Made by a program: the position numbers and the translations under genes
The notes under the pieces: generated by a model
The model's database searches: none
What the model was told of the DNA's origin: nothing
Seen by the model: the letters and a program-made list of their open reading frames with translations, nothing else
Part shown: positions 18,074-47,933 of the stretch, piece after piece
Numbering within the stretch: the first letter of the stretch is position 1
How the letters are laid out: every line of letters begins with the position of its first letter
Assembly: GCF_017094505.1 (NCBI RefSeq)
Contig: NZ_CP064787.1
Location: 744,001 to 808,000 of the forward strand
Source: Halapricum desulfuricans
Lineage (GTDB): Archaea; Halobacteriota; Halobacteria; Halobacteriales; Haloarculaceae
Length of the DNA stretch: 64,000 nt
Reading direction: 5' to 3'

Positions 18074-18865
18074 ATGTCTGACCTGCTGACAGTCGCCGAG
18101 CGCGCGGCCGACGCCGGCGCCGAGTTCGCGATCGAGCGGTTCCGTCGCGACGTCGCCGTCGAGACCAAATCGACGGCGATGGATCTCGTCACCGAGGTCG
18201 ACCGCCGCGCACAGGAGCGCATCGTCGACGTCGTCCGCGAGCACGACCCCGACGCGACGATCGTCGCCGAGGAAGACGACTTCCGCAAGACGGTCCCGGA
18301 CCGCGGCGAGGCCTGGGTGATCGACCCGATCGACGGCACCACGAACTTCGTCCACGGGCTGCTGACGTGGGGCCCCGCCGTCGCAGTCGTTCGGGACGGC
18401 GATCCCGTGGCCGGTGCCGTCGTCGCTCCGGCGCGCGAGGAGCGCTATCTCGTCGGTCCCGAACGCGCGACCGGGAACGGCGACCCCCTGCGCGTCAGCG
18501 ACCGCTCCGACCCCGACTCGTTCGTCGTCGCCCCGATCCTCCGGTACACCGGAAGTGCGGCCGACAGGGACCGGTTCGCCGCCCTGACGACCCGGCTGGT
18601 GACCGAACTGGGCGACGTGCGACGGCTCGGGTCGGCGCAGGTGACCCTCGCGCTCGTCGCGGCGGGAGTGCTCGACGCGACGATCGGACCGTTCCCGCCG
18701 AACGCGTGGGACACCGTCGCAGGGGCGCTCATGGTCGAACGCGCCGGCGGGACCGTCACCGATCTCGCCGGCGAGCCGTGGACGCCCGACAGCGACGCGA
18801 TCGTCGCGACCAACGGCGAGGCGCACGACGCCGTCCTCGACCGGCTCGACGGGTTCGACGAGTGA
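18074..18865 (+). CDS. Inositol monophosphatase / FBPase-family sugar phosphatase
   Basis: 263 residues. Metal-binding motifs are intact: EEDD (about 77-80), WVIDPIDGTTNF (about 87-98, the D-P-x-D-G-T core) and the C-terminal NAWDTVAGAL (about 217-226). In archaea this family covers inositol-1-phosphatase and fructose-1,6-bisphosphatase, acting in lipid or gluconeogenic pathways; I cannot choose between them. The last 54 nt plus the stop are duplicated in tandem after the gene (18811-18968). Confidence 0.88.
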   Translation: MSDLLTVAERAADAGAEFAIERFRRDVAVETKSTAMDLVTEVDRRAQERIVDVVREHDPDATIVAEEDDFRKTVPDRGEAWVIDPIDGTTNFVHGLLTWGPAVAVVRDGDPVAGAVVAPAREERYLVGPERATGNGDPLRVSDRSDPDSFVVAPILRYTGSAADRDRFAALTTRLVTELGDVRRLGSAQVTLALVAAGVLDATIGPFPPNAWDTVAGALMVERAGGTVTDLAGEPWTPDSDAIVATNGEAHDAVLDRLDGFDE

Positions 18866-18968
18866 TCAACGGCGAGGCGCACGACGCCGTCCTCGACCGG
18901 CTCGACGGGTTCGACGAGTGATCAACGGCGAGGCGCACGACGCCGTCCTCGACCGACTCGACCGATTC
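18811..18968. repeat. Tandem duplication of the phosphatase 3' end, 56-nt period
   Basis: Copies start at 18811, 18867 and 18923. The first two are almost identical over 56 nt and contain the final 18 codons and stop of the phosphatase gene; the third is partial (about 46 nt, with mismatches near its end). The period is not a multiple of three, so only the first copy is read in frame. Confidence 0.9.
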
Positions 18969-18974
18969 GCCGCG

Positions 18975-21486: not shown

Positions 21487-21560
21487 ACGTGCTGGGCCCG
21501 AAAATCCCTTTCTGCTGATATCGGCAGGCCCGGCTGGTCGGATCGTCGCTCGACCCGGTC

Positions 21561-21726
21561 GCTCAGTTGTCACGGCACACGAGCTGTGAAGGCTAATCGC
21601 CGGCGCCTTCCACACCGCCGCTCAGTTCGCACGGCACACGATCCGGGAAAGCTAATCGCCGGCGCCTTCGATGCCACCGCTCAGTTCGCACGGTACATCA
21701 CCCGTGAAGCTAATCGCCGGCACCGA
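21561..21726. repeat. Tandem duplication of the FMN-reductase 3' end, 59-nt period
   Basis: Copies begin at 21561, 21620 and 21679 with gctcagtt, then cacggcacac, and end in gctaatcgccggc. The third copy contains the stop codon of the reductase gene (21710-21712) and its last codons. The first two copies lie downstream and resemble each other more closely than the copy in the gene. Confidence 0.88.
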
Positions 21727-37172: not shown

Positions 37173-37689
37173 CGGCTTGCGACGACGCGAACTCGTCGCT
37201 TCGCTCCTCGTTTTGCGTCGTCAGAACTAGCGGGAGGTGGATTGAACCACGCGAAACGCTCGCTACGCTCGCGTTTTTCTCATTCAAATCCACCACAGAC
37301 GAATTCGTCGCTCACGGTTTTGTGAGCGACAGAATATAGCGGGAGGTGGATTTGAACCACGCCCACTTCGCTCCCGTTCGGTCGCTCGTGTTCTCGTTCA
37401 AATCACCGTGACCGATGCTTGCCGCTCACGGGTTTGTGAGCGGCAAAACATAGCGGGAGGTGGATTTGAACCACGCGAAACGCTCGCTACGCTCGCGTTT
37501 CTCTCATTCAAATCCACGCTATACGACTTGCGACGACGCAGACTCGTCACTTCGCTCCTCGTCTTGCGTCGTCAGAAAGTAGCGGGAGGTGGATTTGAAC
37601 CACGCGAAACGCTCGCTACGCTCGCGTTTCTCTCGTTCAAATCACCGCGACCGATGCTTGCCGCTCACGGTTTTGTGAGCGGCAAAACA
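37173..37689 (-). repeat. Array of tRNA-iMet 3'-end copies with stem-loop linkers
   Basis: Four copies of the 24-nt 3' end of the initiator tRNA (T-arm plus acceptor strand and discriminator) lie at 37228-37250 (one base short), 37337-37360, 37451-37474 and 37580-37603, downstream of the true tRNA. Read on the minus strand each is preceded by a partner arm gtggatttgaa or gtgatttgaa, making an outer stem around an inner hairpin such as aaacgc...gcgttt. Linkers between units carry their own hairpins, e.g. ttgccgctcac and gtgagcggcaa. Spacing is 109-129 nt. No gene lies here; a 94-residue open frame on the plus strand is a product of the repeats. Confidence 0.85.
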
Positions 37690-37764
<75 letters not shown>

Positions 37765-37891
37765 ACCGGGTCATAATTCGGCACTACGATTAAGGGTTGT
37801 GATTCGTGTCCCGTCCGTGACTTTCTACCGTGGCTCGGCGTTGCACGTCTACAGCGGTGTGCAACACAGGCCGCGGCAAAACAGACGCCTG

Positions 37892-46778: not shown

Positions 46779-46890
46779 ATCTGCACCTCGCGGCCCCGGC
46801 CCGTAAACGCCGCGCTTGCTGTCCGCGGGAGCGGTCGCGCCTGCAGACGGTTTCAGCCTCCGGTAACCGAACCGGTTGCGCCAGGGATTG

Positions 46891-47584
46891 ATGCCTGAAG
46901 ACGGCACGACGCGCGGTGTGACCACCGAGTCTGAGTGCATTGAGGCGTTGTGGGGTGCCGCCGAGGAGTTGAGTGAATCGCCGACGAAACCCCAGTACGA
47001 GGAGTTGGGGCTGACCCTTGCCTCGGGAACGATCCAGCGCGTGATGGGCGGCTGGAACGACGCCAAAGAAGCGGCGGGACTGGTGACGTACGAACAGGGT
47101 GAGAACGGTGGACAGGACGTCCAACCGAAGCCAGACTGGGTCGACTTGCCACCGGACAAAGACTGGGAGGTGCTGTCCGGAAACATGCGGTGGTACTACA
47201 AGAATCGCGAGCGGGATATCGCGAAGAAGGATCGCCGACGTGTCCGGTTGCGCGGCTGGCTTCACGATTACAGCGGTAGCGAGGCGAAAGCCCACCGGTT
47301 CAGTCGTGTGGAGGAGGTCAAAAGGCCGAGCACTGCCAGTGTGCCCGGTGTGGGGAGGATGCCCACCGGCACTGGATTTCCACCACGTCGATCCGTCGAA
47401 CAAAGAGCGCAGCGTTTCGCGGATGGTCGCGTTCGGCTACGCCAAAGAGAAAATTCGGGCAGAAATCGACAAGTGTGAGGTTCTGTGTGCGAACTGCCAC
47501 AGAGCGGATCACTACGAGGTTCCGATGGAGGCAACCACCGGGAGAGAATCGATAACAAATGCGGACGAAAGCGACAAGGTTTAG
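46891..47584 (+). pseudogene. Broken HNH endonuclease with homing-associated repeat
   Basis: The first frame starts at ATG 46891 and contains a homing-endonuclease-associated unit ([20 protein letters not shown], then [17 protein letters not shown]). The HNH part is split over other frames: CARCGED in one, then LDFHHVDPSNKERS and CEVLCANCHRADHYEVP in another. At least two frameshifts are visible, one in an A-run at 47320-47323 and one at about 47361-47372. The intact gene would have been a zinc-type HNH nuclease. It lies directly upstream of tRNA-Gln. Confidence 0.8.
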
Positions 47585-47615: not shown

Positions 47616-47730
47616 AGTCCATTAGGGTAGCGGCCAATCCTGCGAGCTTCTGGACGCCAACGAGGCGCGTTGTGCGACGCCTCATGGCGGGAAACGGCTC
47701 GCGACCCTGGTTCGAATCCAGGATGGACTA
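47616..47730 (+). tRNA. tRNA-Gln (CTG) with intron
   Basis: The acceptor AGTCCAT (47616-47622) pairs with ATGGACT (47723-47729), discriminator A at 47730. The D-arm GGGTAGCGGCCAATCC, T-arm CCTGG-TTCGAAT-CCAGG (47706-47722) and anticodon stem CGAGC/GCTCG are clear; the loop holds TT-CTG-G. An intron of about 42 nt (about 47654-47695) separates position 37 from 38; its CGCC...GGCG and GAGGCG...CGCCTC arms form a strong hairpin as in archaeal bulge-helix-bulge introns. Haloarchaeal tRNA-Gln begins AGTCC. If the stem is shifted one base the anticodon would read TCT, but the variable loop then becomes too short. Confidence 0.85.
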
Positions 47731-47873
47731 CTTCTGCGAGGAACGGACGTGACGAGCGAATAATCGATAGACTGGATTCAAAGTAGAGAAACGAGCGACG
47801 ACAGGAGTGAGTTTCGCGTGGTTCGAATCCAGGATGGACTACTTCTGCGAGGAACGGACGTGACGAGCGAATA
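47708..47873 (+). repeat. Tandem copy of the tRNA-Gln 3' end with a stem-loop linker
   Basis: A 55-nt block from the T-arm of the tRNA to 32 nt past its end (47708-47762) is repeated exactly at 47819-47873. The 56-nt linker contains ctggattc, which pairs with gaatccag of the second copy, and the core agagaaacg...gtttcgcgtggttcgaatcca, the same core as in the tRNA-iMet array. No gene is visible from 47731 to 47933. Confidence 0.88.
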
Positions 47874-47933
47874 GCCGATCGCGGATTCGGACCCTGAAAG
47901 ACGACCGGAGCGAGTCGAAGTCGTTCTACGACC

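Follow-up and report, generated by a model that had tools for sequence, protein, structure and literature searches.

Units matched to their host tRNAs downstream of haloarchaeal tRNA genes, possibly an order-wide family of gene-less integrative elements

The stretch of DNA analysed here, referred to as the window, comprises 64 kb of a 2.94-Mb single-contig genome and contains an intron-bearing tRNA-Gln(CTG) gene, which was overlooked by the default tRNA scan and was detected once introns were allowed. The gene is followed by a unit with the plan linker, arm, core and 21-nt copy of the tRNA tail, and by the remains of a second unit:

47616-47730, plus strand: tRNA-Gln(CTG), intron-bearing, host tRNA of the unit (intron-allowing tRNA scan)
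47710-47730, plus strand: tail block of tRNA-Gln, from G53 to the discriminator base, 21 nt (boundaries from the copy alignment)
47731-47772, plus strand: linker of unit 1
47773-47783, plus strand: arm of unit 1, complement of the T-arm with mismatches
47784-47820, plus strand: core hairpin of unit 1, of the [gt]ag..gcgt flavour
47821-47841, plus strand: tail copy of unit 1, exact, 21 nt
47842-47892, plus strand: second linker (47842-47881) and arm-like CGGATTCGGAC (47882-47892), a decayed second unit without a tail copy

The two linkers agree at 37/42 positions. Folded alone, the Gln unit is weak (RNA z -0.51, DNA z -1.72), and for this reason the Gln copy looks worn; the unit is missing in the three congeners examined. 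Upstream of tRNA-Gln, at 46890-47580 of the window, there seems to be a broken HNH-type endonuclease gene, according to a by-eye reading.

An earlier note on this DNA proposed that the duplicated tRNA-Gln end is built like the units behind tRNA-iMet, and the exact coordinates mapped above, together with the identity of the 21-nt copy, bear out the common plan of arm, core and copied tRNA end. The iMet array is larger and contains four units:

37689-37765, minus strand: tRNA-iMet, host of the array
37580-37688, minus strand: unit 1, with linker, arm (37636-37645), core and tail copy (37580-37600)
37451-37579, minus strand: unit 2, with arm (37507-37516) and tail copy (37451-37471)
37337-37450, minus strand: unit 3, with arm (37397-37406), a core of another type and tail copy (37337-37357)
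37228-37336, minus strand: unit 4, with arm (37283-37292) and the last tail copy (37228-37247), which is worn and lacks one base

The alignment of the Gln and iMet cores, from which the trailing GGTTC was excluded as tRNA sequence, has a score of 21, compared to a mean of -6.8 (sd 7.7) for shuffled sequences, 2/2000 of which reach this score. The core quoted in the earlier note is, hence, shared beyond chance, although a part of it ('tggttc') belongs to the tRNA's own T-arm. A search across the genome found the exact core pattern at three places, two at iMet and one at Gln. The tandem-GA motif was considered as a general repeat of the window and rejected, since it occurs five times in the 64 kb, three times inside the iMet array, and 0-1 times in shuffled sequences. 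Two tandem repeats, with periods of 56 and 59 nt and 2.8 copies in each, are located at 18811-18969 and 21560-21721 of the window, not at any tRNA from the default scan.

The Gln unit is one instance of a far larger phenomenon. Tail copies, counted at a minimum of 18/22 matches up to 600 nt downstream with other tRNAs masked, follow 23/42 tRNA genes of this genome, and the upstream count is 0/42; the unmasked count of 27/43 took in neighbouring tRNAs (L008, L022), and the loci L042 and L398 were dropped because they had no tRNA call. Copies were also found at 15/42 tRNAs in the congener G001, 15/42 in G006 (another genus of the same family), 22/42 in G206 (another family) and 2 of the 33 tRNAs examined in G126, which has 44 tRNA places. 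Pooled without G126, four genomes have downstream copies at 75/168 tRNAs versus 0/168 upstream; for all five genomes, upstream copies amount to 0/201 tRNAs and inverted tails to 5/201.

The arm-core-tail pattern is present in 58/60 sampled genomes of the order (the exceptions being G126 and G291), with a maximum of 28 strand-matches per genome, and the reversed pattern gave no match in any of these 60 genomes. All 18 distinct pattern sites of the genome studied are located downstream of tRNA genes, a distribution that led to the rejection of dispersed repeats of the REP/REPIN type; a tail with at least 20/22 identical positions was found within 140 nt ahead of the pattern match in 14 of the 18 order loci listed. 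Among the other genomes of the phylum, 38/235 contain 1-3 matches each; the listed ones seem to be chance hits, one example being an ordinary tRNA gene preceded by GATTTGA. Named records carrying the iMet unit belong, among others, to Halapricum, Halorussus, Salinibaculum, Halovenus and Halorhabdus. Almost any tRNA is open to units, though the strongly uneven occupancy is not chance (0/2000 shuffles): among six genomes, units always follow iMet, Ser(tga) and Val(tac) (6/6) and never Ala(tgc), Thr(cgt), Val(cac), Ser(gct) or Leu(cag).

The boundaries of the copied block are sharp. In the 101 copies starting with GTTC, the identity between copy and tRNA is 0.90-1.00 from G53 to N73. Ahead of the block, it is 0.12-0.24 at positions -4 to -8 and does not exceed 0.30 at more distant positions; past the tRNA end, it is about 0.33-0.58. 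The acceptor part is perfect in 85/140 copies, and the 22 nt that follow are near random. Random slippage duplication is ruled out by this sharp block with unrelated flanks. The arm agrees with the complement of its own T-arm at 8-11 of 11 positions in 113/118 units from five genomes. The suggestion that the arms covary with the tRNA holds for the T-arm, the arm score being 11.16 with the own tRNA and 10.12 (sd 0.10) with permuted tRNA labels (0/1000 permutations; two tRNAs without an anchor left out), but the signal beyond the T-arm is weak (21/1000 permutations). Where the T-loop is unusual (Asn, His, Lys, Gly, Val), the arms reflect it; for His, the arm reads AATCGA where the T-loop is TTCGATT (G000) and AATTGA where it is TTCAATT (G206). 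The tRNA-Ser(tga) and tRNA-Leu(gag) of G001 have G57, and the A57 form is kept in their copies and arms, as if the copies preserved an older tRNA sequence.

The two halves of the core covary as well (own helix 5.06 versus 4.03, 0/1000). In the fold of a typical unit, a T-arm helix of 11-12 bp is followed by an internal loop (2 by 3 where clearest), a stem of about 7 bp and tandem GA mismatches, with a GNA triloop at the tip. Strand preference was assessed with a set reduced from 118 units to 108 and then 103 after filtering by arm score, core length and redundancy. The GNA triloop is found on the tRNA-sense strand in 72/103 cores versus 3 on the antisense strand, and the tandem-GA hairpin in 33 versus 0; the latter form is concentrated 0-600 nt 3' of tRNAs (22 sense, 3 antisense; 43 loci of this genome). 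Non-Watson-Crick pairs between arm and T-arm comprise 54 G.U versus 19 A.C. The strand-specific hairpin and the G.U bias indicate that a single strand of tRNA sense, either RNA or ssDNA, matters. Folding energy alone was not decisive as a discriminator between the two; the cores alone have no sense bias (sense versus antisense 55 vs 47 as RNA, p 0.52; 61 vs 38 as DNA, p 0.12), whereas the RNA energy is lower on the sense strand for arm, core and T taken together in 66/103 units, and for linkers in 71/94 non-tied cases.

The sense-strand specificity of the loops, the excess of G.U over A.C, the lower sense-strand energies and the covariation of the core halves, as well as the constant occupancy of iMet, Ser(tga) and Val(tac), favour a function of the units as structured RNAs, which is the main rival to their interpretation as mobile elements. 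As tRNA trailers, the units might regulate maturation by means of the arm:T-arm pairing and the core, or might be small RNAs with a tRNA-like 3' end. However, the presence of a unit at a given tRNA varies inside one genus, an RNA role for the exact acceptor copy, which ends at N73, is not obvious, and T-rich starts are found after tRNAs whether or not a unit is present, so that transcripts may end ahead of the unit. A known structured RNA was rejected, as the sole match of the Rfam search was tRNA-iMet itself and the units were unmatched; all in all, an RNA function appears somewhat unlikely.

The idea of one element type with ends matching the host tRNA is supported by the arm matches and by near-identical cores at different tRNAs, with the refinement that the core shared by Gln and iMet is just one of about five flavours, besides an unclassed rest, each flavour being found on 5-17 different tRNAs. 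In 20/153 units, the core has a counterpart of 90% identity or more at another tRNA in the same genome; two of the 20 are a neighbour artefact (the Asp/Arg(gcg) pair is one shared locus); for linkers the count is 0/153. Successive tail blocks lie 47-242 nt apart, in most cases about 76-160 nt (118 units), which is too short for the units to encode an integrase.

Arrays of congeners differ by whole units. Among the 73 pairs of arrays at the same tRNA compared between congeners, 35 share a unit and 38 share none at 75% identity. The differences comprise 18 proximal, 21 distal and one internal; they occur at both ends, and therefore growth is not polar, and integron-like polar growth at the tRNA was rejected. 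A precise empty site was found in 12/91 comparisons of occupied and empty loci of four congeners (e.g., Asn, Tyr, Leu(taa) and Arg(ccg)), and Val(gac) is a near case (0.71 at a cut of 0.75); 79/91 comparisons have no clean empty site at this cut. Several 'empty' genomes retain the linker, so decay is common; the last copies of the arrays are more decayed than the inner ones (0.158 versus 0.073 acceptor mismatches per site). The G53-N73 block is what an attachment core of the T-loop type would leave, and such gain and loss fit a mobile element.

Tyrosine integrases of one family (phrog_1 match) were found in 44/116 genomes, directly after a tRNA in 27 of the 30 loci listed. In 24 of these 27 tRNA-linked loci, the integrase comes straight after the tRNA's own tail; at the other three (L402/L114, L416 and L427/L437), a unit sits between the tRNA and the integrase element, which starts past the copy, so that the copy, not the tRNA, borders the element. 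At L437 (G277:C14:14400-20400, minus strand), about 4.9 kb including an integrase lie between the copies of a 197-nt direct repeat (97%); the repeat contains the 3' half of tRNA-Glu, one whole unit and the flank on the integrase side, and the arrangement may stem from two tandem integrations. At L438 (G221:C8:5700-10900, minus strand), a 3.7-kb segment, which follows the tail copy, is located between two near-identical tRNA-Phe units and is flanked by a direct repeat of 114 nt containing the units; it is without a recognised integrase and has, judging by eye, two ORFs, one ATPase-like and the other GTPase-like. These loci show that integrated elements may be bordered by copies, and they do not establish that integrases move the units.

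The tail copies could serve as spare landing sites that are retained because integrative elements land there in place of the tRNA; a unit standing between tRNA and integrase element at the three loci, the segment after the copy in L438 and the conservation of the acceptor parts agree with this assumption. Nevertheless, the copies are not clearly preferred, since 24/27 integrases directly follow the tRNA's own tail, and the arms and core hairpins are left unexplained, which makes the assumption quite unlikely. Another explanation treats the units as scars, i.e., att duplications from decayed integrase elements, multiplied by slippage or unequal exchange of tails. The tail blocks do resemble att cores, direct repeats containing units flank the elements in L437 and L438, and the arrays vary by whole units, but random remnants should lack the uniform plan of these small units, their matched inverted arms, covarying hairpins and shared cores; the scar explanation is weakened accordingly and looks decidedly unlikely.

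The locus L114, where arm, core and tail border an integrase element, gave the idea of units as attP flanks of integrase elements. This idea is countered by the different flanks elsewhere, the sequence after the tail being unlike the unit flank at most integrase loci, and by the one mapped far end, that of the integrase element at tRNA-Glu(ttc) of G001, which has no arm, core or tail; the arm, core and tail of L114 may belong to a pre-existing unit, because a typical linker, read by eye, precedes the arm. An origin from halovirus attP sites is not supported by the viral-contig matches listed (of 118 stretches), 0/80 of which fit, the haloarchaeal core grammar being absent from them. Four viral contigs unlike haloarchaea (L148, L164, L185 and L191; GC 0.61-0.65) contain a tRNA-like tail enclosed by long, near-perfect palindromes, GGATTTGAACC..GGTTCAAATCC, which may represent a further system of T-arm palindromes.

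The explanation we tentatively prefer, giving it nearly an even chance, is that the units represent a family, spread across the order, of mini integrative elements that have no genes, are anchored at tRNAs and are moved in trans. The tail block, from the T-loop to the 3' end, would be the attachment core of a tyrosine-type recombinase, with strand exchange in the T-loop; because the block would serve as the attachment core, each insertion would restore the tRNA and leave the old tail behind as a copy. The element would have no enzyme of its own and would be mobilised by a recombinase supplied in trans. In the folded, tRNA-like strand, the arm may pair with the T-arm copy, and the resulting duplex T-arm site may be the form recognised. 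Tandem arrays would then be altered by recombination between tails, and the end copies would decay. We infer the recombinase, the single-stranded intermediate and the route by which the arms come to match the tRNA. Several points count against mobile elements: neither an enzyme nor a circular form nor an autonomous partner came to light; identical precise empty sites would result from deletion between direct repeats; one version of the idea predicts growth at the tRNA end, which was not seen; the uneven tRNA occupancy could also mean function; most comparisons lack a clean empty site; and most integrase flanks are different. A host-wide integron-like system at tRNAs, where a haloarchaeal recombinase would act on the folded strand with its duplex of arm and copied T-arm, and gene-less hairpin cassettes would be captured, shuffled from array to array and lost at nearly every tRNA, with the tRNA unharmed, is conceivable and in our estimation unlikely.

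The units seem to be undescribed tiny mobile elements. No published description of them was found in the literature, where an older notice is possible, the subscription journals being mostly outside the search; the accessible parts of PMC3119063, PMC3623002, PMC8371274 and PMC9668308 go no further than tRNA att sites, archaeal integrons and, at proviruses, single partial copies of tRNAs. tRNA genes are main landing sites of archaeal mobile DNA, and matched trailing units throughout an order have seemingly gone unremarked. Should the units prove mobile, they would rank with the smallest known site-specific elements, with a recombination site made from the tRNA's own T-arm; if RNAs, they would add a new layer to up to half of a genome's tRNA genes. 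Either way, haloarchaeal tRNA annotation, island mapping and the calling of att sites must reckon with them.

Integrative elements of tyrosine integrases targeted to tRNAs are reportedly collected in the Islander database. Families of such elements at archaeal tRNAs have been reviewed (PMC8371274) and, as far as the available part of the review describes them, the units resemble them in the direct repeat of the tRNA 3' end, from the T-arm to the exact gene end, and in the intact tRNA. These elements occupy the same tRNAs as the units, also at tail copies. The units are distinguished from them by their size (about 100 nt), lack of genes, tandem arrangement and presence at up to half of a genome's tRNAs, and by the inverted T-arm and hairpin core. 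The R box of attC sites has the consensus RYYYAAC and GTTRRRY; boxes of this consensus were found in 0/154 units, and assignment of the units to integron or CALIN attC arrays was rejected. Similarly to the attC cassette arrays of integrons, in the portion of PMC9668308 available, the units are arranged in tandem, each ending in a strand-specific imperfect hairpin with pairing ends; unlike the integrons presented there, they have no attC boxes, cassette genes or polar growth and are anchored at tRNA genes. MITEs, PATEs and the short mobile repeats of haloarchaea, terms that appear in PMC3119063, are likewise short, gene-less, hairpin-bearing and multi-copy. The arm and the T-arm are inverted repeats that can be compared with the terminal repeats of MITEs, and a parent element was not found. 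In contrast to these repeats, each unit carries its own tRNA's tail and inverted T-arm, and every pattern site of the genome studied is located at a tRNA.
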